A stretch of 64,000 bases of DNA, from the NCBI RefSeq assembly GCF_001953875.1, contig NZ_MQUR01000001.1:173581-237580 (forward strand), given 5' to 3'. Below the pieces are notes generated by a model. It saw only the letters and a program-made list of their open reading frames with translations. It did no database searches and was not told where the DNA came from. A program made the position numbers and the translations under genes. Below are positions 7,673-64,000 of the stretch, one piece after another. This stretch comes from Streptomyces amritsarensis (GTDB lineage Bacteria; Actinomycetota; Actinomycetes; Streptomycetales; Streptomycetaceae). Position 1 is the stretch's first letter. Each line of letters opens with the position of its first letter.

Positions 7673-7744
7673 GCCCCCGTAGCTCAGGGGATAGAGCAAC
7701 GGCCTCCGGAGCCGTGTGCGCAGGTTCGAATCCTGCCGGGGGCA
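7673..7744 (+). tRNA. tRNA-Arg (anticodon CCG)
   Basis: A complete cloverleaf can be folded: acceptor GCCCCCG/CGGGGGC, D-arm with GCTC/GAGC, anticodon stem ACGGC/GCCGT around the loop CTCCGGA (anticodon CCG), T-arm GCAGG-TTCGAAT-CCTGC, and discriminator A. CCA is not encoded. Its 3' half (from the anticodon stem onward) is duplicated 5.45 kb downstream, so it is the attachment site of an integrated element. The copy here keeps the intact gene. Confidence 0.97.
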
Positions 7745-7745
7745 C
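7703..7745 (+). repeat. attL: 43-bp direct repeat inside tRNA-Arg
   Basis: This is identical base for base to 13156-13198. It begins in the anticodon stem and ends one base past the discriminator; identity stops abruptly on both sides. This is the normal attachment-site core of tyrosine integrases that use tRNA genes. Confidence 0.9.
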
Positions 7746-7799
7746 AGAAGCCAGGCCAGCGTGATCAAACCGCTGACCAGCACATGTGCCAGCAGAAGA

Positions 7800-7833
7800 G
7801 GGCGGGAGTCAGTCTCACTGACTCCCGCCCTTT
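7800..7833 (+). terminator. Terminator after tRNA-Arg
   Basis: Perfect 14-bp stem (7800-7813 and 7817-7830) with a CTC loop, followed by TTT. It lies 56 bp after the tRNA and inside the element. It replaces the original tRNA terminator, which was displaced to 13216-13255. Confidence 0.85.
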
Positions 7834-7948
7834 CTCGTTGTCTCTCACTGTTCACGACACACCTCCGACACACGAAGCCCAGGGGACCGACAACCCGACT
7901 AAGCCGCCTTGACCTGCCAGCCGGAGCCAGCGAGACTGGCGTATGACA

Positions 7949-7961
7949 CCTGTACTACAGG
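7949..7961 (+). promoter_or_regulatory. Palindrome upstream of the antitoxin gene (candidate autoregulatory operator)
   Basis: CCTGTA-C-TACAGG is a perfect 6-bp inverted repeat, 18 bp before the antitoxin ATG and just upstream of its strong GGAGGAACG ribosome binding site. Ribbon-helix-helix type antitoxins usually repress their own operon through short palindromes at this place. Function here is inferred. Confidence 0.45.
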
Positions 7962-7979
7962 CTGGAGAGAGGAGGAACG

Positions 7980-8417
7980 ATGACGCCTGAAACCCGAGCG
8001 AAGAAGGCCAAGCCACTCCCTACGCCGAAGCAACGCGGCATCGCTGGGGTAACGCACAGCAGGGCTGCGAAATCCGCTGTAGAGGGCAAGAGCACTAAGC
8101 TCAAGCCTGCAGAGGTTGACCAGCGCAGCTCGCCGCGTTCCCGTGCGGGCGGCTACTCCAGCTCTACCGAAGTAGCCCAGGTTCGACTGCGCCCAGACGA
8201 GATGGCAGACCTGCGCCTCGTGATGCAGACCCTCAACCTCACGTCGCTGTCTGACGCTCTCCGAGAGGGATTGCGCCTACTTTCACGCGAAGCTGCGGAG
8301 GTGGCAGCCTCTGAGGAGATTCGCTCCTTCTATAAGGGGGCGCAGGCTCCGACTCCGGCAGGCGTTGCGCCAGCCACGGCGGATGAGCTGGAAGCAGCAG
8401 ACGAGATCGAATGGTGA
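7980..8417 (+). CDS. Probable antitoxin of a MazEF/PemIK-like toxin-antitoxin pair
   Basis: The product (145 aa) has a Lys/Pro/Ser-rich N-terminal half. Its middle (about residues 63-100, VAQVRLRPDEMADLRLVMQTLNLTSLSDALREGLRLL) reads like a ribbon-helix-helix DNA-binding fold: a short strand, then two helices. The acidic, Pro/Ala-rich C terminus (APATADELEAADEIEW) is the kind of tail that wraps a MazF-type toxin. GGAGGAACG directly precedes the ATG. The stop overlaps the toxin start by 7 bp, so the two are translationally coupled in the usual antitoxin-first order. The pair is the first cargo after the tRNA in the element and may stabilise it. Confidence 0.7.
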   Translation: MTPETRAKKAKPLPTPKQRGIAGVTHSRAAKSAVEGKSTKLKPAEVDQRSSPRSRAGGYSSSTEVAQVRLRPDEMADLRLVMQTLNLTSLSDALREGLRLLSREAAEVAASEEIRSFYKGAQAPTPAGVAPATADELEAADEIEW

Positions 8418-8749
8418 GTCCCGGTTCCGCGATGCGCGGAGAGGTATGGGGATGCGTCCTGCCCAGCCCAATCGGCTCACACCCCGTGGTCGTCCTCACC
8501 GTCAATCGCATTGCCGAACCACTGTCAGCGGTGACCGTTGCCGTGGTTACCGGAACGTCTGGCCCAACATCCACTCATGTCCCCATTGGCCCCGAGTGCG
8601 GCGTAACCAAGTACGACGAGTCATACGTCAACTGCACGGACCTGCACACCGTGGACAAGTCCAGGCTTCGTAGGCGTCTCGGTCTCCTGGATCTGAGCGA
8701 ATTGCAGCGAGTCGAGGACTGCGTTCGCGTCATCTTGGGCCTTTCATGA
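8411..8749 (+). CDS. MazF/PemK-family endoribonuclease toxin
   Basis: The product is 112 aa from ATG 8411, or 105 aa from ATG 8432. MRGEVWGCVLPSPIGSHPVVVLTVNRI is the family's first strand-loop region (RGEVW, then hPVVVL). ATVAVVTGTS-like and GLLDLSELQRVEDCVRVIL segments match the following strands and the C-terminal helix. MazF/PemK proteins cleave mRNA at short sequences and are neutralised by the co-transcribed antitoxin. Coding overlaps the antitoxin by 7 bp. The 8432 start would leave RGEVW two residues from the N terminus, as in typical family members, so the exact start is open. Confidence 0.82.
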   Translation: MVSPGSAMRGEVWGCVLPSPIGSHPVVVLTVNRIAEPLSAVTVAVVTGTSGPTSTHVPIGPECGVTKYDESYVNCTDLHTVDKSRLRRRLGLLDLSELQRVEDCVRVILGLS

Positions 8750-8773
8750 TGCCCACCGCCACCAAGATGTGAA

Positions 8774-8807
8774 GAGCGGTGGCCCGGATTGCTCCGGGCC
8801 ACCGCTC
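8774..8807. terminator. Bidirectional terminator between toxin and integrase remnant
   Basis: A perfect 15-bp stem (8774-8788 / 8793-8807) with a 4-nt loop. It lies between the plus-strand toxin stop (8749) and the minus-strand integrase stop (8816), so it can serve both converging transcripts. Confidence 0.85.
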
Positions 8808-8815
8808 CTAATCAA

Positions 8816-9496
8816 CTACATCCCCGGTGTGTCGCCTTCGTCATCGAGAGCCTTTGCAATCTTCGCGTTGGCCGCCTCCTCGTGACCGTCGATGCAGCCG
8901 TGGTATCGGCGATGAATCACCTCAGGCGAGTTGCCGACGCGCCGCGCCACCTCAGCAATGGGCGCCCCAGCATTCAGCCACCGCGTGATGCACGCGTGCC
9001 GCAGGTCGTACGGGCGGCCGGCCAACGGCGAGTCCATACGTTCCGGGGGCAGCGCGTACGCCCGCGCTTCCTCCCATACCCGCCAATAAGTGGAGGATCC
9101 GACCACTCCACCGCGTTCGTTCCCGAAGACACGCCCCTCCTTGGCGGTCCCGAACTCCTCTCGGTGCGACTGAAGGATGGCGACCAGAACGGCCGGTATA
9201 GGGACCGGCCGGTCCGTGGACGCCTCGCGCGCCTTCAGGCCACGCCGGTCGTGGCGCTCGCCAGAGTCGGTCCACTGCTTCCCGGAGACGGGGCGCGTCT
9301 CCCGCAGCGTCAGCGTGCCCCACCCGTTCTCGGGCAGGTGGCAGTCCGTCCACCGGAGCCCGACCGCCTCGGCGGGTCGAAGCCCCGCGTAGTACAGGAC
9401 CCGGCAAGCCAGTGCGGCGAGTCCGAGACGGCCTGTGTAGCCCCAAACGGCCGGTCTGTCGCCCCAGCGCCGATCGTCCGGCGACAGGGACTGCAC
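8816..9496 (-). pseudogene. Tyrosine recombinase/integrase, catalytic domain only (5'-truncated)
   Basis: The frame encodes the C-terminal catalytic part of a phage-type integrase. Arg I is in YYAGLRPAEAVGLRW, the His-x-x-Arg pair is in YDLRHACITRWLNAG, and the nucleophilic Tyr is in EVIHRRYHGCIDG. Streptomyces tRNA integrases are normally about 370-460 aa and begin with an arm-binding and a SAM-like core-binding domain. Here at most ~226 codons exist, and upstream of 9496 the sequence changes to an AT-richer stretch with unrelated coding. The catalytic residues are intact, but the core-binding domain is missing, so activity is unlikely. Its position is unusual: the integrase C-terminal end faces the tRNA side rather than lying at the far end of the element. 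Confidence 0.85.
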
Positions 9497-9634: not shown

Positions 9635-11677
9635 TCATCGGATTCTCGCGGACGCTTGGCCCGCAACGCTCGCCGCAAGAAGATTCAGACGCCGAGCTGT
9701 CGTACCCGGATCTTCGAGAATCGAGTACTGGGAGCCCACTTTTCGGATCGCGTGGATAATTTCCGAAGAAAGGAACTTCAACACAGATTCAATTTCGTGC
9801 GGAGTCGGCGGATTTTCTACTTCGGACCGGAAAATCAGGTATAGATCGTGAGCCGAGAGCGCGCCAGTCGTTACCGCGTCCGCAGAGGCTGCTTCGGTGG
9901 CCAACTGTCGCAAAACCCGATCACACAACCTATACATCCTTTTCTCCGCGCTCCACCGCTTTTCGAGCACCCCACTCTCCACCACGCCGACACGACTACA
10001 TACGTCCCTAAGCTCTTGAAGCGTGAGCGGGGCTTGCGCATGATGCTCGACAATGGAGATCAGAGTTTCTACATCCAGTAGCCCCACGCCATGCGCTTCG
10101 GCTCGTGCGGCCAGACGGCTACCGGGGAATCCTGGACCAACGACGAGTATATACTCTGCCGAATTCGCGGCGCGATGTTCCTTAAGCGTGTCGAAGTTGA
10201 CCTGCGTCTCCCCAATCTTCCCGGATGCCGACGACTTGGCATCGACAATTACGCTGTACTTAGAGTCGCCAGAGAGGTGCGCCGTGACCAGGACGTCGGT
10301 TTGCCCGGGGCCGCCGAAAAGTTGACTGTCGTACCCGAGATGTGCAAATGCCTCCGCGACTTCTCGCTCGAACCGCTCAGGGCTACCCGAGTCCCGCGAG
10401 GCTGCCCGCAAAGTCTCGGCCGTCGGGCTGAGCGAGGCCTCAACCCCAGGAGTCGGGCCCTCCCCCTGCGTCGCTTCAAGGGCTGCGGGCGCGTCCGTCG
10501 GCAAGTCAGCCAGCATGGCCCGACCTAGCGGGAGCACTCGATAGTGCCCCCAAGTAACCTCCTCTACGAGCCCACACTCTCGCAGCATTTGAAGTCGCGT
10601 CCGCACTTCCGGAATGTCCTCGCGAGGAACCCTGTAGCGAGTCAGCGCCAAGGCAGCCAAGTCGCGAGGGGTGTCAACTTCCTCAAGGGCTTCTAGGATT
10701 TCACCGACGAACTTAAACTTCGAATGAACGACACGCAGGTAATCGAGGTCATGCGGTGCGGCGAGGCAGGCTTTCGCAATATCTGTAGACCGGTAGGTAC
10801 CGAACCCCACTTGTTCAACCATCCCCGCAGCCTTGAGCGTTCCAAGAGCGGAGGCGACCGACGATGGCCTGAGGCCAAATTCAGCCGAGGCGAACTCGTC
10901 AATCTCCTCACGCGACATATCATCAGTCAGCGCTTTAGAAAATTTCCGCATCGTCAAAAAAGAGTCGCCATCATTGCGCGGAATATACCCAATGTTGGCC
11001 TTACGATCCCGCCCAGGGCCATCAAGCTGAGCCCGGACGAGTGGATGTGCTGCGGGCAGCTCCGTGACTGGGTCGACTTTTCCCGCACGTCGCTTACCAA
11101 TTTTCGGTTCGGCCAGCTCCAAGCGCCGCACAAGCTCTAGGCCCGACTCTGTGGGGGTAATGTCATGCCGAAAGTCAAGCTCGACAAATCCGCCTGCTCG
11201 AAGCCAAGCTGTCCGCCTTCGGATCTGGTCAAGGCTCTCCCACGCACAGCCATATTTCTCAGCCGCGCGGGTCAAGAGATCCGACTGCGTACAGCCTTCG
11301 CGGGCCTCGTGAACCAGCTCACCCACAAAACGGATGTTGGCATGGAGAATCGCGATTAGATAAGCGTCGTCGCCGCTGTTCAGCCACTCCTCAGAATGCA
11401 TGGTGAGCGCCCAGGAACTGCGACCCATCCTTGTAACAAGTCCCGCTGGCTGAAGTCGCTGACCAACCAGGGCAAGCGTTGTGTGGCCACCTGCGTCGCC
11501 CGGCAGGGCGATTGGCTCCTCCACCGGGAGACCGTCACGAAGGGCTGCCAGCAGGACACGCAGAACCTCAATCTGCGCGTCCGTCCCACCCGGCAACGCC
11601 GGCATGGAAAACGCTCGGTTACTCCACGGCCGCACCGGTAGCAGTACCTCCGCGCCATGGACTCGTTCGACGCTCAC
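9635..11677 (-). CDS. wHTH-repeat protein with PD-(D/E)XK (Mrr-like) nuclease core, candidate defence protein
   Basis: The product is 680 aa. GTG at 11677 is chosen because GGGGAGGG lies 5 nt upstream; a GTG at 11725 is in frame but lacks a site. Residues ~97-195 and ~303-390 look like diverged copies of one helical module (compare ANIRFVGELVHEA with SKFKFVGEILEAL, each followed by an RTAWLRAGGFVEL- or RLQMLRECGLVEE-type wing), probably winged-helix units. Residues ~433-530 form a restriction-endonuclease-like core: E in FEREVAEAFAHLGYDSQLF, D461 in GGPGQTDVLV, and D479-A-K481 in YSVIVDAKSS, matching the E...D...(D/E)xK order of Mrr-type domains. A further ~150 helical residues end the protein. 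No methylase is nearby, so a modification-dependent or nucleic-acid-sensing nuclease is possible. Substrate and role are unknown. Confidence 0.75.
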   Translation of the reverse strand: MSVERVHGAEVLLPVRPWSNRAFSMPALPGGTDAQIEVLRVLLAALRDGLPVEEPIALPGDAGGHTTLALVGQRLQPAGLVTRMGRSSWALTMHSEEWLNSGDDAYLIAILHANIRFVGELVHEAREGCTQSDLLTRAAEKYGCAWESLDQIRRRTAWLRAGGFVELDFRHDITPTESGLELVRRLELAEPKIGKRRAGKVDPVTELPAAHPLVRAQLDGPGRDRKANIGYIPRNDGDSFLTMRKFSKALTDDMSREEIDEFASAEFGLRPSSVASALGTLKAAGMVEQVGFGTYRSTDIAKACLAAPHDLDYLRVVHSKFKFVGEILEALEEVDTPRDLAALALTRYRVPREDIPEVRTRLQMLRECGLVEEVTWGHYRVLPLGRAMLADLPTDAPAALEATQGEGPTPGVEASLSPTAETLRAASRDSGSPERFEREVAEAFAHLGYDSQLFGGPGQTDVLVTAHLSGDSKYSVIVDAKSSASGKIGETQVNFDTLKEHRAANSAEYILVVGPGFPGSRLAARAEAHGVGLLDVETLISIVEHHAQAPLTLQELRDVCSRVGVVESGVLEKRWSAEKRMYRLCDRVLRQLATEAASADAVTTGALSAHDLYLIFRSEVENPPTPHEIESVLKFLSSEIIHAIRKVGSQYSILEDPGTTARRLNLLAASVAGQASARIR

Positions 11678-51568: not shown

Positions 51569-51839
51569 GTCCCGTGTTGACGTAGGGTTCGACTGGGAAG
51601 GACATGATCTCGGCCACACGTACCCGGGGTCCGTCAGGGGTGCGAAGCCAAGGGGGCCGCAACCTCGGTGCCCCCTACCCGAACCAGGCTGGTTTCCCGC
51701 CATTCCACGTCATGAAACCCGCCGTTCGATGTGACCTGCATGACGTAAGTCCCGCCCGGCCTGCATGCAGCGGCCGAGGAGGCGTAGCCTTTATTCCCGC
51801 TGTCCATACCTTGTGAAGCGGAAGAGGGCGGTTGCCGCC

Positions 51840-54800
51840 GTGTCGCCACAGTCCCCCAGTAACTCGAGCACCACGACCGAAGCAGCAGAGGGCGGGAAGA
51901 ACCCTGCCTCAGGCTTCGGCGCGAATGAGTGGCTCGTCGACGAGATCTATCAGCAGTACCTCCAGGACCCGCAGTCGGTCGACCGGGCCTGGTGGGACTT
52001 CTTCGCCGACTACAAGCCGGGGGGCGCTGCCGCTCCGGTGACGTCGGCCGGTCCCGACAAGTCCACGCCGACGGACGGCGCCTCCGCACAGGCCGCCACC
52101 GCCGTCGCCGGGACGCCGCAGGCCGCCGACGCCGCCACGGGGGCGGCGGACGCCGCGCCCGCGCCCACCGCGACGCCGACTCCTCCGCCTGTGTCAGCTC
52201 CTGCCCCTGCTCCTGCCATCCCCTCTGGTGCCCCTGCTGTGACTGTCACCTCCCAGGCCCCGGCCGCCGCACCGGCCGCGCCCGCCCCCGCCTCCGTAGC
52301 CCCGCAGAAGGCCGCGCCCGCCACCGGGGCCCCCGCGGGCCCCGAGCTGGTGACGCTCCGCGGCCCGGCGGCAGCCGTGGCCAAGAACATGAACGCCTCC
52401 CTCGACGTGCCGACGGCCACCTCCGTCCGCGCCGTCCCGGTGAAGCTGCTGTTCGACAACCGCATCGTCATCAACAACCACCTGAAGCGGGCCCGGGGCG
52501 GGAAGATCTCCTTCACGCACCTCATCGGCTACGCGATGGTCCAGGCCATCAAGGCCATGCCGTCGATGAACTACTCCTTCGCGGAGAAGGACGGCAAGCC
52601 CACCCTGGTCAAGCCCGACCACGTGAACTTCGGCCTCGCCATCGACCTGGTCAAGGCCAACGGCGACCGCCAGCTCGTCGTCGCCGGCATCAAGAAGGCC
52701 GAGACCCTCAGCTTCTTCGAGTTCTGGCAGGCCTACGAGGACATCGTCCGCCGCGCCCGCGTCGGCAAGCTGACGATGGACGACTTCACCGGCGTGACCG
52801 TCTCCCTGACGAACCCCGGCGGCCTGGGCACCGTCCACTCCGTGCCCCGCCTGATGCCCGGACAGTCGGTCATCATGGGCGTCGGCTCCATGGACTACCC
52901 CGCCGAGTTCCAGGGCACCTCGCAGGACACCCTGAACAAGCTGGGCATCTCCAAGGTCATGACCCTGACCTCGACCTACGACCACCGGGTCATCCAGGGC
53001 GCGGCCTCCGGCGAGTTCCTGCGCATCGTCGCGAACCTGCTCCTCGGCGAGAACGACTTCTACGACTCCGTCTTCGAGTCGCTGCGCATCCCGTACGAGC
53101 CGGTCCGCTGGAACCGCGACATCGACGCCAGCCACGACGACGACGTCACGAAGGCCGCCCGCGTCTTCGAGCTGATCCACTCCTACCGGGTCCGCGGCCA
53201 CGTCATGGCCGACACCGACCCGCTGGAGTACAAGCAGCGCAAGCACCCCGACCTCGACATCACCGAGCACGGCCTCACCCTGTGGGACCTGGAGCGCGAG
53301 TTCGCCGTCGGCGGCTTCTCCGGCAAGTCGATGATGAAGCTGCGCGACATCCTCGGCGTGCTGCGCGACTCGTACTGCCGCACCACCGGCGTCGAGTTCA
53401 TGCACATCCAGGACCCCAAGCAGCGCCGCTGGATCCAGGACCGCATCGAGCGCCCGCACACCAAGCCGGAGCGCGAGGAGCAGCTGCGCATCCTGCGCCG
53501 CCTGAACGCCGCCGAGGCCTTCGAGACCTTCCTGCAGACGAAGTACGTCGGCCAGAAGCGCTTCTCCCTGGAGGGCGGCGAGTCCGTCATCCCGCTGCTC
53601 GACGCCGTCATCGACTCGGCCGCCGAGGCCCGCCTCGAAGAGGTCGTCATCGGCATGGCCCACCGCGGCCGCCTGAACGTCCTGGCGAACATCGTCGGCA
53701 AGTCCTACGCGCAGATCTTCCGCGAGTTCGAGGGCAACCTCGACCCGAAGTCCATGCACGGCTCCGGCGACGTCAAGTACCACCTGGGCGCCGAGGGCAC
53801 CTTCACCGGCCTCGACGGCGAGCAGATCAAGGTCTCGCTCGTCGCGAACCCCTCCCACCTGGAGGCGGTCGACCCGGTCCTGGAGGGTGTCGCCCGCGCC
53901 AAGCAGGACGTCATCAACAAGGGCGGCACGGACTTCACCGTCCTCCCGCTCGCCCTCCACGGCGACGCGGCCTTCGCCGGCCAGGGCGTCGTCGCCGAGA
54001 CGCTGAACATGTCGCAGCTGCGCGGCTACCGCACCGGCGGCACCGTGCACGTGGTCATCAACAACCAGGTCGGCTTCACCGCCGCCCCGGAGTCCTCGCG
54101 TTCCTCGATGTACGCGACCGACGTGGCCCGCATGATCGAGGCGCCGATCTTCCACGTGAACGGCGACGACCCGGAGGCCGTCGTCCGCGTCGCGCGGCTC
54201 GCCTTCGAGTTCCGCCAGGCGTTCAACAAGGACGTGGTCATCGACCTCATCTGCTACCGCCGCCGCGGCCACAACGAGTCCGACAACCCGGCCTTCACCC
54301 AGCCGCTGATGTACGACCTGATCGACAAGAAGCGCTCGGTGCGCAAGCTCTACACCGAGTCCCTCATCGGTCGCGGCGACATCACCCTCGAAGAGGCCGA
54401 GCAGGCGCTCCAGGACTTCCAGGGCCAGCTGGAGAAGGTCTTCGCGGAGGTCCGCGAGGCCGCGACGCAGCCCGCGGTCTCCGCGGCGCCGGCGCCCGAC
54501 CAGGCCGACTTCCCCGTCGCGGTCAACACCGCGATCTCCCAGGACGTCGTCAAGCGGATCGCCGAGTCCCAGGTCAACATCCCCGAGGGCGTCACCGTCC
54601 ACCCGCGTCTGCTGCCGCAGCTGCAGCGCCGCGCGGCGATGATCGACGAGGGCACCATCGACTGGGGCATGGGCGAGACCCTCGCCTTCGGCTCGCTGCT
54701 GATGGAGGGCACCCCGGTCCGGCTGTCCGGCCAGGACTCCCGCCGCGGCACCTTCGGCCAGCGCCACGCCGTCCTCATCGACCGGGAGACCGGCGAGGAC

Positions 54801-55706
54801 TACACCCCGCTGCTGTACCTGTCCGAGGACCAGGCCCGCTACAACGTCTACGACTCGCTGCTCTCCGAGTACGCGGCCATGGGCTTCGAGTACGGCTATT
54901 CGCTGGCCCGTCCGGACGCGCTGGTCCTCTGGGAGGCGCAGTTCGGTGACTTCGTCAACGGCGCCCAGACCGTCGTCGACGAGTTCATCTCCTCGGCCGA
55001 GCAGAAGTGGGGCCAGACCTCCGGCGTCACCCTCCTGCTCCCCCACGGCTACGAGGGCCAGGGCCCGGACCACTCGTCCGCCCGCCCGGAGCGCTTCCTT
55101 CAGCTGTGCGCGCAGAACAACATGACGGTCGCGATGCCGACCCTCCCGTCGAACTACTTCCACCTGCTGCGCTGGCAGGTCCACAACCCGGCCCACAAGC
55201 CGCTGGTCGTCTTCACCCCGAAGTCGATGCTGCGTCTGAAGGCCGCGGCGTCGAAGGCGGAGGAGTTCACGAGCGGTTCGTTCCGTCCGGTCATCGGTGA
55301 CACCACGGTGGACGCGAACGCGGTCCGCAAGGTCGTCTTCTGCGCCGGCAAGGTCTACTACGACCTGGAGGCCGAGCGCGAGAAGCGCGGCATCACGGAC
55401 ACCGCGATCATCCGCATCGAGCGCCTGTACCCGCTCCCGGGTGCCGAGCTCCAGGCCGAGATCGCCAAGTTCCCGAACGCGGCCAAGTACATCTGGGCGC
55501 AGGAGGAGCCGGCGAACCAGGGCGCGTGGCCGTTCATCGCGCTCAACCTGATCGACCACCTCGACCTTGCGGTCGGCGCGGACGTCCCGGCGGGCGAGCG
55601 CCTGCGGCGCATCTCGCGCCCGCACGGCTCGTCCCCGGCGGTCGGCTCCGCGAAGCGCCACCAGGCGGAGCAGCAGCTCCTCCTGGACGAGGTCTTCGAG
55701 GCGTAA
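51840..55706 (+). CDS. kgd: Multifunctional 2-oxoglutarate dehydrogenase E1 / succinyltransferase (Kgd)
   Basis: The product is 1288 aa. The N-terminal helix [20 protein letters not shown] then DRAWWDFF is followed by a Pro/Ala linker (~60-165). Residues ~166-400 form an E2-like acyltransferase domain ([20 protein letters not shown], ending [20 protein letters not shown] with the catalytic His). The rest is a thiamine-diphosphate E1 ([32 protein letters not shown], [30 protein letters not shown]). This fusion is the actinobacterial Kgd/OdhA form. It has no lipoyl domain and works with a separate lipoylated E2. GTG 51840 is used; an in-frame GTG at 51813 is possible. Confidence 0.97.
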
Positions 55707-56564: not shown

Positions 56565-57704
56565 CTAGCCGCCGTACGGGTTGATGATGCGGTGCGGTCG
56601 GCGGGCCGTCGCGAGGACGTTCTGCGGGAACTGCGGGCCGGCGACGTAGTGGCGGCCTTTGGTCTGCCCTACCGCGGTCAGCACGCCCGCCTTCGTCAGC
56701 GACTGCAGGTCCCGGGTCGCCTGCTGGGTGTTGATCGCCTCCTGCCGCTCGTACCGTGAGCGCCGTACCCGGTTCACCATGGCCACCTCGTGCAGAGCAG
56801 TGACCTGCCGCTCGCTGATTCCATGTGTCTCGGCATGCTCCATCAGCTCGATCCAGACCTGGTTCGAACGGTCGACCCGATGCTGTACCCGCTGCGCCTG
56901 CTCGTGGTAGGCGCGCAGGTTGAACTTGATCCAAGGCAGGGTGTCGCGCTCGGGCGAGTACACGGGCCCGCCGACCTCTCGTAGCACCTTGTAGTACTCC
57001 CAGGTGTTGCCGGGCATCCCGAGCCACTCCTCGATCGAGGAGAATTCGGGTGCCAGGACGCCGCCGCGGGCGATCAGCAGAGTCTGCAGAGACCGGGACA
57101 TGCGACCGTTCCCGTCGGACCAAGGGTGGATCTTCACGAGGTTCAGATGAGCCATCGCCGCCCGAACCAGGACATGCGCTCCGGTGTCACCCTCGTTGAG
57201 CCAGTCCACCAGCTCGGCCATCAGCCCCGGCACGAGTTCGTGGTCAGGGCCGTCGTAGTCGGTGGCGAGCTCGTCCCCTGGTGCGGTGATCCGGATGGAG
57301 GTCTTGCGCCACTGCCCGGCCGTGCGCAGCGGGTGGTGCTGGCCTTGGAGCATCCAGTGCAGGGCGTTCAGCAGTTCCTTGTTGTACCGGAAGTCCTCGA
57401 CGTCGTGGAGCGACTGGATGTACGTCATCGCCTGCTGGTAGGCGAGGGTCTCCGCCTTGTTCTCCTCACTCGCGTCCACCTCGCGCTCGCCGTCCATCAG
57501 GTCCGCGACGTCCTTCGCGTCGACCCGATAGCCCTCGATGGTGTTCGATGCCGCGATCGCGCTCGCGGTGAGTGCCTTGCGGAGGTCCTGGGTCCACTTC
57601 ATCGGCGCGTGCTGCACCGCGTCACGCAGGCGCTCACGCCGGCCGTCCACCTCTTCCAGGATCCGGAGGTCGAGGGAATCAAGGGCCGGAGTCTCGTACA
57701 GCAT
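56565..57704 (-). CDS. Fic-domain protein (probable AMP-transferase)
   Basis: The product is 379 aa. The catalytic motif is IHPWSDGNGRMSRSL with H193 (consensus HPFxxGNGR). The N-terminal SAIAASNTIEGYRV contains the (S/T)xxxEG inhibitory helix with E57, which occludes the ATP site in class II Fic proteins. A C-terminal helix-turn-helix-like region (~residues 310-360, ISERQVTALHEVAMVNRVRR, then TQQATRDLQSLTKAGVLTAV) suggests DNA binding or autoregulation. ATG 57704 is used, although a frame opens further upstream. Fic proteins transfer AMP to hydroxyl groups of target proteins. It stands alone between a tRNA fragment and the FxSxx-type operon. Confidence 0.9.
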   Translation of the reverse strand: MLYETPALDSLDLRILEEVDGRRERLRDAVQHAPMKWTQDLRKALTASAIAASNTIEGYRVDAKDVADLMDGEREVDASEENKAETLAYQQAMTYIQSLHDVEDFRYNKELLNALHWMLQGQHHPLRTAGQWRKTSIRITAPGDELATDYDGPDHELVPGLMAELVDWLNEGDTGAHVLVRAAMAHLNLVKIHPWSDGNGRMSRSLQTLLIARGGVLAPEFSSIEEWLGMPGNTWEYYKVLREVGGPVYSPERDTLPWIKFNLRAYHEQAQRVQHRVDRSNQVWIELMEHAETHGISERQVTALHEVAMVNRVRRSRYERQEAINTQQATRDLQSLTKAGVLTAVGQTKGRHYVAGPQFPQNVLATARRPHRIINPYGG

Positions 57705-57709
57705 GCTCC

Positions 57710-57732
57710 AATGATACCCGCTTCCTATCATT
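57710..57732 (-). promoter_or_regulatory. Inverted repeat directly upstream of the fic gene
   Basis: AATGATA (57710-57716) and TATCATT (57726-57732) are exact complements 9 bp apart. The inner half lies 6 bp before the fic ATG on the minus strand and itself reads TATCAT, close to a -10 hexamer, which would give a leaderless or nearly leaderless message. AT-rich arms stand out from the surroundings. It could be an operator for the Fic protein's own helix-turn-helix. Confidence 0.45.
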
Positions 57733-57837
57733 TCAGCGGCGTTCCTTCGGGGGAGGCACCGCGACCACGGGAGGCGCCCTTGCGGGACCGGCACGGCCAG
57801 GAGCGCGGCGCCCGCGCCCGCCCGTACACACTCCGCC

Positions 57838-60800
57838 CTACGGCTGGGGTTCGAAGTCCCAGTACGGCCTTGCCCGTTGTTTGGCCGAGACCGTGTGGAC
57901 GTGTTGGGCGCCCAGGGTGCGGGTGAGGCCCTTGATGCCCGCGTCCTCGTGTTTGCCCGCCTCCGTGTCCTCCCGTACCGACCGCAGGTCCGCGGCCAGG
58001 GCGATCTGGGCGCTCAGCGTCATCGGGTGGTCCGGGCCCAGGACGCGTTCGGCGGTGCGCAGGGTTTCGCGGCTGAGGTCCAGGGCGTCCTCCAGGCGGC
58101 CGGTGATGTTGCGGTGTCCGGTGGCGTTGAGGGCGCAGCCCAGTGTCCAGGGGTGCCGGCTGCCGAGCGCGCCGCGCATGCCGACCAGTGCCTGCTCGGC
58201 GAGGGAGAGGCCCTCGGCGCGTTCGCCCTGGGCGCGCAGGACCAGGCCGAGGTTGCCGACGGTGCCGATGCTGTACGGGTGGGCGAGGCCGAGCTGTGAC
58301 TGGTAGCCGCGGACGACGTCCTCGGAGATCCGGCGGGCTTCGCCGATGTCGCCGTACTCCCGGAGGTAGGTGGCGTAGTCGGAGGCGACCATCAGCGTCC
58401 AGGGGTAGTCCACGCCGAAAACCCTCGTCGCCCGCTCCCACACGGTCCGCAGCCGCAGGCCCGCGCCGGGGATGTCGCCGGAGCGGCGCAGGCACAGGCC
58501 GAGGTTGTGCTCGGCGCGCAGGGTCTGGGGGTGGCCGAGCCCGAGCACCTGCGTGTTGAGTTTGACGCCCTGTTCCTGCCGGGTCTGGGCCTCCCGGTAG
58601 CGGCCCATGAGCCGCAGTCCCATGGCGCAGGCGATGCCGGAGGCGAGGGTGGAGATGTGCAGGGGCATCAGGACGCGTTCGCGGCGGCGCAGGGTGTCCA
58701 GGTCGAGGTCGTAGGCGTCCTGGTAGCGGCCGAGGAGCCGGTAGGTGGCGGCGAGGTTGTTCTGGGCGTCGAGGGTGATGGAGTCGTCCTCGCCGAGGAG
58801 CTCGCGGTAGGTGGCCAGGCAGTGCTCGAAGATCTCGCGGGCGGGTTCGAACTTGGCGATGCACAGCAGGACGCCGCCGTAGGCGCTGGTGGCGCGCAGG
58901 CTCTCCAGGTCCTGGTCGCCGCGTTCCCCGGTGAGGCGGTCGGCGACGGACCTGGTGAGGATTTCGGCGCGGCGGAACAGGCCGAGGTTGCGCAGGGAGT
59001 TGCCGTACTGGTAGCTGAGCTCGCGGACCTTGGGGTGGTCCTCGCCGAGCCGGGCGCGCCAGACCTGGTCGGTCTCCTCGCACAGGCGCAGGCAGGTGCG
59101 GTATTCGCCGGCGAGGATCAGGTAGCGCAGGCAGTGCAGCAGGAAGTTCTGGATCCGCGGGTTGCTGCTGTTGATGACCCCGGACGGGGTGAGGTGGGGG
59201 ACGAGTTCGGCGTAGCGGGGCCAGAGCCGGGAGTCGGAGGGCCGGCCGGGGTCGGCTGCGGCGAGGACCTGGCGGACGGCCCGGGCGAGGGGTTCGGCTT
59301 CCTCCTCGGAGAGGTTCTCGCGGACGATGCCGTGGACCATGCGGTGGAGCTGTACGGTCTCCAGGCCTCCGCCGCCTTCCTCCACGGGGAGGTCGGAGTA
59401 CTCCAGCCGTACGACGGAGAACTGGACGAGTTTGTTGAGGGCGCCGTTCCACCGGATCTGGTCGTTGATGAGGCCGGCGAGCTGCTCGGGTACGTCGTCC
59501 GCGGGGAATTCGCGCAGCAGGCGCAGCGGGACGGGGCCGGGGGCGAAGAACACGAACAGCCGCAGCAGGGCGAGGGCGTCGGGGAAGTTCTCCCGGACGT
59601 TGTTGAGGAGTATGGCGAGGGCCGTGGGGAAGGGCAGCGGGTAGTCCTCGGAGACGGCGACGGCCTCGCGGGAGTCCATGCGGCGCTGGAGCAGGGCGAG
59701 GTAGTCGCCGACGGGCAGGGGTGAGTCGGCGAGCCAGCCGGCGGTCTGGTCGAGGGCGAGCGGGTAGTCCTCCAGGGCCTCGGCGAGCTGGTCGGCCTCG
59801 GCGGCGGTGAGGCGCAGGGCGCGGCGGCGGATGAAGGTGATGGACTCGGGGCGGGCGTAGAGGGGTACCTCGACGAGGCTGGTGTGGCGGGCGGCCCATT
59901 CGCGGTTGCGGGAGGTGATGATGACGTCGCCGGCGCCGCCGGAGGGCAGCAGATCGATGAGGTCGTCGGGGTTGTCGCAGCCGTCGAAGACCATCAGCCA
60001 GCGGCTGTACGGGGTGCCGCGGCGCAGCGCTTCGAGGACGGCCCGGATCTGCTCGCCGTAGCTGCCGGCGCCGCGCGGGAGGCCGAGGGCGGGGGCGAGG
60101 TCGGCGAGGCGTTCGCGGAGGGTGGGGCGGTCCTCGGCGGGGACCCACCAGACGACGTCGTACTCGGAGGCGAAGCGGTAGGCGTACTCGGTGGCGACCT
60201 GGGTCTTGCCGACGCCGGAGAGGCCGAGGAGGGTGACGGTGGACGCTCCGGGCGGGGCTTCGGCGAGGGCTTGGCGCAGGGTGCCGATGACGTCGTTGCG
60301 GCCGGTGAAGCGGGGGTTGCGGCGGGGGACGCGGCCCCAGATCTCGGGCGGGTCGTTGGGGAAGCGGGGGCCGCGGCGGCCGGTTTCGGTGCCGATGCGG
60401 TCGGTGGGCAGTTCGAGGCGGCGCAGGACGCGGTATTCGGCTTCGTACGCGTCGAGGCCCCACAGGTCGGTCTTCTCCAGGACGGCGACGGCGCTGGGCA
60501 GGGGTGCGTCGGTGAGGCAGACGGCGGCGAACCGGTCCGGGTGGTCGTCGGTGACGGCGCGCAGGGCGGTGTTCCACTCGTCGTCGGTGTGGGTGCCGGC
60601 GGAGAAGTAGCGTTCGCTGAGGACGAGGAGGACGCGGCTGCCGGAGCGGGCGAGGTCGCCGAGGGCCTGGGTGAGCCCGGGGCTGCTCTGCGGGTCCCAG
60701 CGCTGGAGGGCGACGCGGTGGCCGTGTTCCTCCAGGCGGTGGGCGATCCACACGGCCCAGGGGCGGTTGAAGCCCGCGAAGCTGATGACGAAGCGCTGCG

Positions 60801-60852
60801 GCTGCTGGGGCTGTTGCGCCGATTCGCGGTCCTGCCGGCTACCGGTGGTCAT
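57838..60852 (-). CDS. fxsT: TIR-like/NB-ARC/TPR protein of the FxSxx-COOH system
   Basis: The product is 1004 aa. Residues ~18-145 form a TIR-like domain (RFVISFAGFNRPWAVWIAHR, then RVLLVLSERYFSAGTHTDDE). The NB-ARC NTPase follows with Walker A LLGLSGVGKTQVATEYAYRF (K216), Walker B WLMVFDGCDN, VIITSRN, and EDYPLALDQTAGWLADSPLP (GxP-like). The C-terminal half has ~8 TPR-like repeats (ITLDAQNNLAATYRLLGRYQ, then PQTLRAEHNLGLCLRRSGDI and similar). Order and flanking sequence fit FxsT, the STAND protein of the FxSxx-COOH system. It follows the HExxH gene by 64 bp on the same strand. Role in the system is not established; the architecture resembles immune signalling ATPases. Confidence 0.85.
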   Translation of the reverse strand: MTTGSRQDRESAQQPQQPQRFVISFAGFNRPWAVWIAHRLEEHGHRVALQRWDPQSSPGLTQALGDLARSGSRVLLVLSERYFSAGTHTDDEWNTALRAVTDDHPDRFAAVCLTDAPLPSAVAVLEKTDLWGLDAYEAEYRVLRRLELPTDRIGTETGRRGPRFPNDPPEIWGRVPRRNPRFTGRNDVIGTLRQALAEAPPGASTVTLLGLSGVGKTQVATEYAYRFASEYDVVWWVPAEDRPTLRERLADLAPALGLPRGAGSYGEQIRAVLEALRRGTPYSRWLMVFDGCDNPDDLIDLLPSGGAGDVIITSRNREWAARHTSLVEVPLYARPESITFIRRRALRLTAAEADQLAEALEDYPLALDQTAGWLADSPLPVGDYLALLQRRMDSREAVAVSEDYPLPFPTALAILLNNVRENFPDALALLRLFVFFAPGPVPLRLLREFPADDVPEQLAGLINDQIRWNGALNKLVQFSVVRLEYSDLPVEEGGGGLETVQLHRMVHGIVRENLSEEEAEPLARAVRQVLAAADPGRPSDSRLWPRYAELVPHLTPSGVINSSNPRIQNFLLHCLRYLILAGEYRTCLRLCEETDQVWRARLGEDHPKVRELSYQYGNSLRNLGLFRRAEILTRSVADRLTGERGDQDLESLRATSAYGGVLLCIAKFEPAREIFEHCLATYRELLGEDDSITLDAQNNLAATYRLLGRYQDAYDLDLDTLRRRERVLMPLHISTLASGIACAMGLRLMGRYREAQTRQEQGVKLNTQVLGLGHPQTLRAEHNLGLCLRRSGDIPGAGLRLRTVWERATRVFGVDYPWTLMVASDYATYLREYGDIGEARRISEDVVRGYQSQLGLAHPYSIGTVGNLGLVLRAQGERAEGLSLAEQALVGMRGALGSRHPWTLGCALNATGHRNITGRLEDALDLSRETLRTAERVLGPDHPMTLSAQIALAADLRSVREDTEAGKHEDAGIKGLTRTLGAQHVHTVSAKQRARPYWDFEPQP

Positions 60853-60916
60853 GCGGCCGTCTCCCTGGGCTGCGGGCAGTGGACGGGACTGAAAAGGTAC
60901 CGCAGCGGACGGTCCG

Positions 60917-62173
60917 TCAGACCTGTGCGAACGGGGCGAGTTCGGGGTGCGCCTCGCACCAGGCGCGGCGTTCGCGGTCGACGGCGCGGCGGGCCGCGGC
61001 GTGCTGGTCGCCGGGGGGCGGCAGCTCGTCCATCGCCCGCTCGGCGGCGGCCATGGCGTCGGTGAACTCCCGGCCCGCGGTGGTCAGTCGCTCATGGGCG
61101 CGCAAGGTGGGCAGGACGGCGGCGACCTGGGCGCGGATCCGGGCGTGCTGGGCCCAGGCGCCGCGGGCTCCGTAGAGGGCGGCGCGCTGCCAGTACCCGG
61201 CCAGGGCCAGGTGGGCGTAGGTGCCGTGCAGGAGGCCCTCCAGGGGGCGGGGGTCGCTGCGCCAGGGGGCCCAGTGGCGGGGTGCGGCGTCGGCGGTGTG
61301 CAGGGTCAGGACGTCGGCGAGGGCGGTCAGTTTGCCGTGCTGGACCTCGTGGACGAGGGTCGCGGCGAGGGCCGGCGGGGCCTGTGCGCGGGCGAGTACG
61401 GAGCCGGCCGCCGCGGGGAGGGTGGCGCCGCTGGAGCGGGATCCGCCGGCCAGCGGTACGAGGGAGCGGAGCAGCTGTACGGTCTCCTCCGCGCGGGCGG
61501 TGTCGTAGCGCTGGAGCAGGGTGAGCGCGCCGGACCACTGGGTGTCCCACCGTTTGTGGCCCTTGGGGGTGAGGCGGCGGGCGGGGCGCAGGGGTGCGGG
61601 CTGTGCGGGTCCGGGTGCCCGGTAGGGGTCGAGGTCGTCGAGGGCGGTACGGCCCCCGGGCAGTGCGTGCAGGGGCAGTGCGGCGGGGTTGCCGGGATCC
61701 CAGGAGCGTTCGGTGAGGACGAGGGGGCCGGGGCGGTCCGGGCGCAGCAGGCCGAGGGTGGGCAGGACGAGCCGGCCGTGCACGGGCCGCAGGGTGTGGG
61801 TGAAGGGGATCCCGGCGCGCAGGGCGGCGGCCGCGGCGAGGGCGCCGAGGTGGGCGAGGTCGGGCGGCGGGCCGAAGGGGGCGTGCAGCCGGCGCAGGGT
61901 CTCCTCGGCCCAGACGCCGGTGGCGGGGTAGTGCAGTACGTCGCGCACGGCGGCCGGGTCGTGGCGTTCGGCCTCCTCCAGCAGCGCCCAGTGCTCGGCG
62001 GTGCGGCCGGAGCTGCCGCCGGGGGCGGCGTCGAGGACGGCGCGGAGCAGGACCAGGCGCTTGGAGCGGCGTACGTCGCGGACCAGGCGGGTGCCTTCCG
62101 GGGAGGGCTCGGTGGAGGCGAGGGCGCGCAGGGTCCGGGAGGGCACGGTGAAGGCGGCGAGGGCGGCGGTCAT
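60917..62173 (-). CDS. HExxH-motif putative peptide-modification protein (beta-hydroxylase type)
   Basis: The product is 418 aa. The motif HEVQH (H275-H279) lies in ATLVHEVQHGKLTALADVLT, followed by a WRSDPRPLEGLLHGTYAHLA helix. This is the pattern of a family found beside radical SAM enzymes in FxSxx-COOH and related RiPP loci, now described as 2-oxoglutarate/iron HExxH peptide hydroxylases. In the well-known FxsB form this region is fused to the radical SAM protein and inactivated. Here it is a separate protein with an intact HExxH. ATG 62173 overlaps the radical SAM stop in ATGA, so the two are co-translated. The exact reaction is inferred. Confidence 0.8.
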   Translation of the reverse strand: MTAALAAFTVPSRTLRALASTEPSPEGTRLVRDVRRSKRLVLLRAVLDAAPGGSSGRTAEHWALLEEAERHDPAAVRDVLHYPATGVWAEETLRRLHAPFGPPPDLAHLGALAAAAALRAGIPFTHTLRPVHGRLVLPTLGLLRPDRPGPLVLTERSWDPGNPAALPLHALPGGRTALDDLDPYRAPGPAQPAPLRPARRLTPKGHKRWDTQWSGALTLLQRYDTARAEETVQLLRSLVPLAGGSRSSGATLPAAAGSVLARAQAPPALAATLVHEVQHGKLTALADVLTLHTADAAPRHWAPWRSDPRPLEGLLHGTYAHLALAGYWQRAALYGARGAWAQHARIRAQVAAVLPTLRAHERLTTAGREFTDAMAAAERAMDELPPPGDQHAAARRAVDRERRAWCEAHPELAPFAQV

Positions 62174-63792
62174 GAGGCGGCTGCCGGGGGGTGTGCGGGG
62201 GTGGTGCGGCGCCTGCCGCCGGCGGCGGCGTGCTGTACGGCGGTGGCGATGTGCCGGATCAGGACCTGGAGGTCGGCGCAGTAGACGGACGGCCGGCGGA
62301 AGCCTTCGCCGGCGCGGTAGCGGTGCGGGTAGTGGCCGCCGCCGCACACCTCGACGAGTTCGCAGGCGCGGCATCCGTCGGCGAGGGCGTCCCGTCCGAG
62401 CTGGCGTGCGGCGAAGCCGGGGTGGTCGAGGAGCTGGTCGAAGCTGTGGGTGTCGAGGGCCATGCCGGTGGCCGCGGCCCCCTCGTACGCGGATTTCAGC
62501 GAATCGGCCTGTTCGATGGAGCCGTCGGTCTCGATGACGGCGGTGGCGGCGGGCGCGAGCCCGAGGGTCTCGGTGGTGGCGGGCAGGCCGAGCAGCAGGG
62601 CGATGATCTCCTCGAAGAGGCGGATGCGGGTGCGTCGTGCTCCGTCGTGCCACCAGCGTTCGAAGACGGCGAGGAGCCAGTCGGCGTACGGGGTCCGGCC
62701 GGGGCGGCGGCCGGGGCCGGGGGGCGGCGGGGAGCTCCAGTTGGCGAGCGGGAGCAGCAGGCCGATGGTCGGCGGGGCGAAGGCGAGCAGGGACTCGTAG
62801 GTCTCCACCGGGTCCTGGTCGAGGTCGACGACGCAGAGCACGCCGGCGTAGCTGTCCGGGTGGCGTGCGAGCAGGCGCAGGCCGCGGGCGGCGGCGCCGA
62901 AGCCGGGGTGTCCGGCGTGGTCGACGCGGCGGGTGTTGTGCGCGGGCAGTCCTCCGTCGAGGCTGACGCCGACCCGGATCCCGGCGGCGGCCAGGGCGGT
63001 GAGGCGGCCGCGGGTGATCAGGGTGCCGTTGGTCTGGACGGTGGCGGTGACGCGGGTGCGGGGGCTGGTGGCGGCGAGGGCGGCGCGTACGGCTTCCACG
63101 GGCGCGGCCAGTGCGGCGGGGGCGGTGAGGAGGGGCTCGCCGCCGTGCAGGACCAGGTCGACGCGGGGCAGGTCGTGGGCGGCGGCGTGCTCGGCGATGC
63201 GGTGCGCTGCGCGGGCGGCGGTGGCGGGGGTCATGGCGACGGGCTGGTCGCGCCAGCCCTGGTCGGCCATCTCGTAGACGTAGCAGTAGGTGCAGGCGAG
63301 GTTGCAGCGGCTGCGGGTCTTGAGCACGAACTGGCGGATGGGATGGGGCGGGTGGCCTGCGGCCCGCGCGGCGGCGACGTCGAGGCGGGTGTAGGGCCAG
63401 GGGGCGTTGCGGGCATGCCGGGACGCCTGCGCGGCATGCCCCTCGGACCGGGCGGAGCCCGGCCCCCTCCCCTGAACCGGATCCGGGTACGCCCCGACCC
63501 CGTCCCCCACCTCAGCGGCGAGGGCGGGGCCTTGGACGGGACCCGGCCGGGAGGCGGGAGCCGGCTGCACGGCGAGGGCCGGGCCTCGGCTGGGGTCCGC
63601 AGGCGGCACGGCGGCCGGCTGCACGGCGAGGACGGGACCCAGGCGGGAGGCGGGGCCGGTGGGCCGGGTGGACCCCGCGTGGGGCACGGCCCCCGGCTGC
63701 ACGGCGAGGGCCGCGCCTCGGGCGGGATCCGGGCGGGGGGCGGGAGCGGGGGGCGCGGGCACCGGGGAGCTGCTCGTGATCGCTCGCCGCAT
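62170..63792 (-). CDS. fxsB: Radical SAM/SPASM peptide-modifying enzyme (FxsB type, without extension)
   Basis: The product is 540 aa. The [4Fe-4S] motif is C163-x3-C167-x2-C170 in SRCNLACTYCYVYEMADQGW, preceded by PPHPIRQFVLKTRS. VLHGGEPLL and TVQTNGTLI are the SAM-binding strands, VGVSLDGG the next, and the C-terminal SPASM-like CRACELVEVCGGGHYPHRYR and YCADLQVL bind auxiliary clusters. FxsB enzymes form Phe-linked cyclophane cross-links in FxSxx-COOH peptides. Residues 1-130 are an unusual Pro/Ala-rich extension with repeated ALAVQP units. GGGAGGGAG lies 7 nt before ATG 63792, supporting the long form. No precursor with an FxSxx end is seen within the window. Confidence 0.88.
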   Translation of the reverse strand: MRRAITSSSPVPAPPAPAPRPDPARGAALAVQPGAVPHAGSTRPTGPASRLGPVLAVQPAAVPPADPSRGPALAVQPAPASRPGPVQGPALAAEVGDGVGAYPDPVQGRGPGSARSEGHAAQASRHARNAPWPYTRLDVAAARAAGHPPHPIRQFVLKTRSRCNLACTYCYVYEMADQGWRDQPVAMTPATAARAAHRIAEHAAAHDLPRVDLVLHGGEPLLTAPAALAAPVEAVRAALAATSPRTRVTATVQTNGTLITRGRLTALAAAGIRVGVSLDGGLPAHNTRRVDHAGHPGFGAAARGLRLLARHPDSYAGVLCVVDLDQDPVETYESLLAFAPPTIGLLLPLANWSSPPPPGPGRRPGRTPYADWLLAVFERWWHDGARRTRIRLFEEIIALLLGLPATTETLGLAPAATAVIETDGSIEQADSLKSAYEGAAATGMALDTHSFDQLLDHPGFAARQLGRDALADGCRACELVEVCGGGHYPHRYRAGEGFRRPSVYCADLQVLIRHIATAVQHAAAGGRRRTTPAHPPAAAS

Positions 63793-63885: not shown

Positions 63886-64000
63886 TCAACCCGGTTGCCC
63901 CGCGCGCCCCTCCGGTGGTGCCGGACCGGCTGCGCGGGCCTCGGCGCCGATCCGCGGGGCGGGATCCGTCGCGGTGGCGGGCGGTGCCGTATCCCTGGCG
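63886..64000 (-). CDS. Possible 3' end of a gene entering from the right edge
   Basis: One minus-strand frame is open from the edge to TGA at 63886-63888, with a GC-rich third position (product ending RIGAEARAAGPAPPEGRAGQ then PG). It would lie 93 bp upstream of the radical SAM gene. It does not end in an FxSxx motif, so it is not the precursor. Too short to identify. Confidence 0.3.
   Translation of the reverse strand, partial: ARDTAPPATATDPAPRIGAEARAAGPAPPEGRAGQPG

Follow-up and report, generated by a model that had tools for sequence, protein, structure and literature searches.

The window analysed here, a 64,000-nucleotide stretch of the 7.8-Mb Streptomyces amritsarensis genome on the contig that we label C112, ends with three minus-strand genes of a seven-gene row that encodes a trypsin-VMAP protein, a MoxR ATPase, a vWA protein, an FxSxx precursor peptide, the radical S-adenosylmethionine (SAM)/SPASM peptide maturase FxsB, a separate HExxH protein and FxsT, a protein with TIR, NB-ARC and tetratricopeptide repeat (TPR) regions. 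The four genes beyond the window end were read from L009, a fetched stretch of the same genome that reaches past that end. From upstream to downstream the row reads as follows.

L009:14498-16657, minus strand: trypsin-VMAP protein, farthest upstream of the island genes
about L009:13407-14456, minus strand: MoxR ATPase, upstream of the vWA gene
L009:10074-13400, minus strand: vWA/SAV_2336-type protein, upstream of the precursor
L009:9774-9971 (window 64193-64390 by extension), minus strand: FxSxx precursor (fxsA), 65 amino acids, predicted FxsB substrate
62170-63792, minus strand: FxsB radical SAM/SPASM peptide maturase, 540 amino acids as called, with the radical SAM domain from about residue 152
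60917-62173, minus strand: separate HExxH protein, predicted alpha-ketoglutarate-dependent peptide beta-hydroxylase, 418 amino acids, its start overlapping the FxsB stop (ATGA)
61337-61351, minus strand: motif HEVQH of the HExxH protein, residues 275-279 (alignment numbering)
57838-60852, minus strand: FxsT, TIR-NB-ARC-TPR protein, 1004 amino acids, predicted STAND-type receptor with a TIR effector domain

A preliminary description, made from the letters of the window, had read its last three genes as a radical SAM/SPASM enzyme, an ATGA-overlapping HExxH protein with an intact motif and a 1004-residue TIR/NB-ARC/TPR protein, and their coordinates and all three curated cut-offs confirm this. 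FxsB scores 416 bits against TIGR04269 (curated cut-off 370) and is over the Pfam cut-off for Radical_SAM, the HExxH protein scores 143.5 bits against TIGR04267 (aKG-HExxH peptide beta-hydroxylase; cut-off 40) and carries HEVQH, and FxsT scores 833 bits against NF040586 (FxSxx_TPR; cut-off 300). Upstream, the trypsin-VMAP protein matches VMAP-C (115 bits, cut-off 27) and Trypsin_2, the MoxR protein is over the cut-off for AAA_5 with Walker motifs present, and the vWA gene matches SAV_2336_NTERM (452 bits, cut-off 200); the vWA domain itself has zero Pfam match, so that the vWA call is made from the SAV_2336 model and the DxSxS metal ion-dependent adhesion site (MIDAS) that is present. VMAP-C, a MoxR AAA+ protein and a vWA protein in one gene row define a VMAP ternary system, and the separate TIR-AP-ATPase-TPR gene 3' of the precursor, radical SAM and HExxH genes places the locus in the FxSxx subtype. 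This kind of locus has already been described by Kaur, Burroughs, Iyer and Aravind (2020; eLife, PMC7159879), the only treatment of this locus type in the open literature that was searched. Their FxSxx-type VMAP ternary system with peptide-processing genes shares, as far as their passages on it go, MoxR, vWA with TPRs, trypsin-VMAP, a small FxSxx protein, radical SAM-SPASM, HExxH and a downstream TIR-AP-ATPase-TPR gene; in those passages the predicted product is a peptide toxin or signal, and the HExxH protein is taken for a peptidase (Kaur et al., 2020). The immune-type receptor that the preliminary description placed in the same row is thus real and had been reported alongside VMAP, MoxR and vWA. 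Added here are comparisons of gene order, of the HExxH motif in separate and fused genes, of the clade that carries each core type and of island loss with HExxH retained, together with a correction of the published functional guess for the HExxH protein from peptidase to likely hydroxylase.

FxsB homologs over the cut-off occur in 124 of 199 genomes drawn from the genus and in 58 of 296 drawn from the class. The loci compared comprise 60 split and 20 fused places from the genus list ranked by score and a further 40 from other genera, and since they come from the top of ranked lists, the fractions below are not population frequencies. Counting L009, 36 of 81 loci from the genus have a linked TIR receptor, and their FxsB sequences group in a single clade of 38 rows (support 100/99). 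The order trypsin/VMAP-MoxR-vWA-FxsB-(HExxH)-TIR-FxsT is kept in 29 of these 36. The seven exceptions are L072 and L091, which extend past the ends of their contigs, the tandem forms L065 and L066, and L068, L090 and L093, where some of the upstream genes are missing. The vWA MIDAS is present in 26 of 33 TIR-linked loci. We consider it rather unlikely that the VMAP-MoxR-vWA genes and the fxsA-FxsB-HExxH-FxsT genes are two independent systems that are merely neighbours, a reading to which the absence of VMAP-C from all 40 loci of other genera (33 of which have HExxH) and from L093 inside the genus would lend itself; against it stand the 29 of 36 TIR-linked loci in which precursor, FxsB and FxsT come after vWA with order and strand unchanged, and the same coupling in the account of the system by Kaur et al. 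(2020; PMC7159879).

The preliminary description had anticipated a short FxSxx gene beyond position 64,000, and an open reading frame (ORF) was found there, 193 bases past the window end, with the C-terminus NAFDSSAA and 49 bits against TIGR04268 (FxSxx-COOH; cut-off 28). It scores 43 bits against the YxD-tail model, below the cut-off of 55. The tail is one residue longer than an exact F-x-S-x-x C-terminus, FDSSAA being F-x-S plus three residues, in which the core differs from that of the Kaur system; as the family model is passed nonetheless, we term it an FxSxxx variant. The precursor gene lies between the vWA and FxsB genes in L009 and in relatives, and a separate set of named loci (L162-L194), which come partly from the same genomes as the other loci and were not pooled with them, yielded a precursor in 21 of 33 cases, all with NAFDSxxx tails. 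A genome-wide profile search gave no second place over the TIGR04268 cut-off elsewhere in the genome; the next-best place (25.9 bits, below the cut-off) adjoins a fused FxsB (FxsBH, NF040587) on contig C27. That locus shares with ours the FxsB family, an FxsT relative (1057 bits) and a precursor, ending FNSAL, and differs in having lost the HExxH motif and in that the TIR domain and VMAP genes are not seen in the fetched stretch.

FxsB carries the radical SAM CxxxCxxC motif and SPASM cysteines, and CxxxCxxC, two SPASM Cys and the last Cys are kept in all 36 TIR-linked loci. It matches ChlB (PDB 9gm3; phmmer E 1.7e-72), and a Phe-to-Ser C-C cross-link is likely its product, as predicted from this homology. 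ChlB/ChlH and SjiH are fused radical SAM and alpha-ketoglutarate-HExxH proteins (PDB 9gm3, 8s5f, 22ob/22nu) in the sections of PMC12636437 on these enzymes, whereas the two enzymes are separate genes here. As called, FxsB has ahead of the radical SAM domain a proline-rich N-terminus of about 140 amino acids with repeated ALAVQPA-like units (window 63370-63792, minus strand), so that its true start is uncertain and the start codon may lie further in.

The separate HExxH protein matches both SjiH and ChlH in sequence (22nu, E 1.4e-17; ChlH 8s5f, E 2.9e-9) and in fold, and is 96% identical to its Streptomyces virginiae counterpart. With its AlphaFold2 model (predicted local distance difference test, pLDDT, 78.7) as query, Foldseek gave SjiH-Ni 22ob as the best match (E 4.9e-14, template modelling (TM) score 0.70), followed by ChlH 8s5f (E 2.0e-6, TM 0.52); four of 58 matches had E <=0.001, all of them SjiH or ChlH chains, and no peptidase was among these four. 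Score, motif and the SjiH/ChlH fold thus place the protein in the aKG-HExxH family. ChlH is reported to hydroxylate Asp and His and to depend on a pre-installed cyclophane, in the parts of PMC12636437 that concern it, which together with the SjiH/ChlH likeness favours hydroxylation after cross-linking here. In the Kaur proposal the protein would instead be a zincin-like peptidase that cuts the precursor and frees the C-terminal peptide; HExxH is indeed a zincin motif, the passages on this system term the protein a metallopeptidase (Kaur et al., 2020; PMC7159879), and for PflC, a related HExxH enzyme, the part of PMC12636437 that treats it reports peptide cleavage in the absence of the leader. 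That proposal has become improbable to us, since the top solved-structure folds are those of SjiH-Ni and ChlH, titled alpha-ketoglutarate dependent oxygenase, TIGR04267 names a beta-hydroxylase and no peptidase comes up in Foldseek at the above E-value. Set aside on fold and curated model, it is retained as a rival, and alpha-ketoglutarate hydroxylation is likely the better reading of the likeness in sequence and modelled fold.

Among TIR-linked relatives that carry the gene, the HExxH motif is intact in 26 of 26, and PWRxDxRP is present in 25 of 26 loci. In a wider tally of 155 FxsB rows, in which one FxsB without HExxH is counted twice owing to the overlap of L043 and L049, all 72 separate HExxH genes have the motif and the fused rows keep it in 6 of 53 cases. 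The other 47 fused rows (nine of them classed by ORF length only) are without it, in agreement with the earlier remark that the HExxH part of fused FxsB proteins is often inactive.

Presence of the HExxH gene goes together with the type of precursor core. The 12 FxsB sequences without HExxH form one clade (99/95) nested in the TIR-linked clade, and all 12 have a precursor, none of which has F-x-[SN] with two or three residues after it at its C-terminus; 11 read A[YF][YF][ED][DN] and that of L079 reads AVYGDS. Precursors were found beside 25 of the 26 HExxH genes, and 23 of these 25 do end in F-x-[SN] and two or three further residues. The clade that is without HExxH but still has FxsB, with its A[YF][YF][ED][DN] cores, is a further difference from the published system. 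The link between core and HExxH was not established outside the TIR-linked clade, where pattern searches yielded only some precursors and no count is claimed. The second core position was considered as a hydroxylation site; it is Asp, Asn or Thr in cores with HExxH, but Glu or Asp are also found there in cores without HExxH, and it was rejected as a proven site.

The named loci include natural deletions of the island. FxsB, HExxH and FxsT are present in 28 of the 33, and 24 of these have all upstream genes; in the other five the HExxH gene occupies the same chromosomal site by itself, with the sodN region on one side and the presumed sucA gene on the other.

about 10001-11197, 7678-8868 or 7744-8833 in the L187, L188, L189, L193 and L194 stretches: orphan HExxH genes

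No other island gene was matched at these five sites, save for one 41-base vWA match elsewhere in L194, and in each of the five genomes the only FxsB over the cut-off is a fused one located elsewhere. The orphan frames are open, and in four of five the first His of the motif is replaced (Phe in L188 and L193, Tyr in L189, Arg in L194), the simplest reading of which suggests that the HExxH protein needs its operon. The tree of HExxH genes, which also includes P-rows of unknown genomic context, suggests that the island was lost at least twice, a count that relies on the grouping of L194, a long branch, with L190 (99/91) apart from the 13-row clade of the other four. Insertion of an island around an older resident HExxH gene was considered less likely because the orphan genes nest inside the tree of island genes. 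Relaxed selection on the orphans was not clear, with ratios of nonsynonymous to synonymous substitution (dN/dS) of 0.30-0.45 in all ten orphan pairs vs. 0.19-0.48 in island pairs (subsample of 12).

The receptor gene product FxsT, named "FxSxx-COOH system tetratricopeptide repeat protein" by NCBI in Streptomyces, is over the Pfam cut-offs for TIR_2 (70 bits, residues 21-141) and TPR_12, and below them for NB-ARC (19.6 bits) and AAA_16. We know of no TIR receptor context for ChlB. The Walker A motif GxxGxGK[TS] is kept in all 36 TIR-linked loci. A TIR glutamate, which from its place before a Trp we take to be of the catalytic type, is present in 31 of the 36 loci and in 105 of 119 relatives. 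The model of residues 1-175 (pLDDT 84.9) is matched in Foldseek by bacterial, plant and animal TIR domains, including those of TIR-STING, BtpA and SARM1, with modest E-values (best 2.3e-4); TIR fold and Glu are those of a TIR NADase, and NAD+ cleavage is predicted. The TPR part resembles the TPRs of kinesin light chain, which bind peptides, and FxsT may read the modified peptide. FxsT, the HExxH protein and the vWA protein had no PADLOC family at E 0.001, and FxsB, MoxR and VMAP gave weak partial matches only; FxsT thus does not match a described anti-phage protein.

We propose that FxsB would install a three-residue cyclophane on F-D-S, from Phe to Ser, and that the HExxH protein would then beta-hydroxylate a residue in or beside the core with Fe(II), O2 and alpha-ketoglutarate, the Asp of FDS being a first guess, in both steps by homology. 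These two successive modifications, cross-link and hydroxylation, which the preliminary description had put forward, are well supported by homology and comparison, because precursor, FxsB and HExxH occur together, the HExxH protein resembles SjiH and ChlH, the core switches with HExxH and the motif decays in most orphans. More tentatively, the VMAP/MoxR/vWA machine may sense stress and the trypsin domain may process partners, while FxsT might read the peptide through its TPRs and oligomerize with ATP, so that its TIR domain could cleave NAD+ and stop the cell. The preliminary description had suggested a peptide-based signalling or defence system, and the likely role would be peptide-controlled self-defence, a reasonable published prediction. 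The whole proposal, a core FDS first cross-linked and then hydroxylated to give a peptide that sets FxsT activity, seems to us about as apt to hold as to fail.

Several observations weigh against it. The L093 locus, on a large contig, has FxsB-HExxH-FxsT in a stretch where no VMAP genes were found, and the link to VMAP is therefore not strict. Two of the 25 precursors beside HExxH (L059, L071) do not fit the core pattern and that of L076 was not found, and because the loci without HExxH are a single clade, the association of HExxH with the core counts as one evolutionary switch and is statistically weak. The PWRxDPRP loop (300-308) of the HExxH model has pLDDT <50, and five of the 36 loci have another residue in place of the TIR Glu. 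Finally, orphan L187 keeps HEVQH without the island; given this, the open frames and the dN/dS range of the orphans, HExxH may be used outside the operon.

An exported natural product or hormone-like peptide, with FxsT helping in immunity, regulation or export instead of acting as a suicide receptor, is unlikely, for no transporter was seen among the L009 island genes (relatives were not surveyed for one) and 29 of 36 loci preserve the TIR domain and the VMAP/MoxR/vWA genes in their order. Such a product would suit the short precursor and enzymes of the type that make ribosomally synthesized and post-translationally modified peptides, as well as the FxsB relatives outside the genus that adjoin TIR-less FxsT-like proteins on the other strand. 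A far more speculative form of the peptide-controlled receptor, to which we give very little credence, is that the peptide guards the supply of cofactors: with SAM, an intact Fe-S enzyme, O2, iron and alpha-ketoglutarate at hand, the doubly modified peptide would keep FxsT silent, whereas an attacker that depleted any one of them would leave the core unmodified, to be read by FxsT, whose TIR domain would then kill the cell. On this reading, the joint switch of core and HExxH would reflect co-evolution of ligand and receptor, and the orphan HExxH genes would be what remains of a dismantled guard. If a peptide made by a radical SAM enzyme and a hydroxylase does control a TIR-STAND receptor, there would be bacterial immune receptors whose ribosomal, post-translationally modified ligand comes from their own operon. 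At this locus the idea is directly testable, because close relatives naturally have HExxH, are without it, or have the island deleted and HExxH left.

Three further features flank or interrupt the row.

window 56565-57794, minus strand: Fic-domain gene, 43 bases downstream of FxsT
window 51765-55706, plus strand: presumed sucA, adjoining the island
L009:9595-9774 (window 64014-64193 by extension): GC-rich repeat in the fxsA-fxsB spacer, 33 genome matches

The Fic gene matches the PADLOC SoFic model (E 1.4e-45), yet scores only 46.9 bits against NCBIfam SoFic (cut-off 550). It was rejected as a member of the system because a Fic-like match occurs in one of the 33 named loci (L163); among 150 other genus and class loci there is none besides L009. 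The gene at 51765-55706 we take to be sucA, 2-oxoglutarate dehydrogenase E1, whose substrate is the cosubstrate predicted for the adjoining HExxH enzyme; the adjacency is probably only a shared insertion site. The fxsA-fxsB spacer of 400 bases contains the repeat; several of its matches are located at the ends of contigs, and two lie on C27, upstream of the FxsB locus there.

Other arrangements of the enzyme pair occur among the relatives. FxsB-HExxH pairs in L133 and in the other-genus loci L122-L161 commonly face a TIR-less FxsT-like protein on the opposite strand. In L053, L057, L064, L073, L081, L122 and L128, separate FxsB and HExxH genes are convergent to a gene with vWA and NB-ARC/TPR in one frame, which MoxR adjoins in all of them except L053, in whose stretch it was not seen. 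This fused vWA-AP-ATPase type is listed for other peptides in the parts of Kaur et al. (PMC7159879) that cover it, and occurs here with a radical SAM gene.

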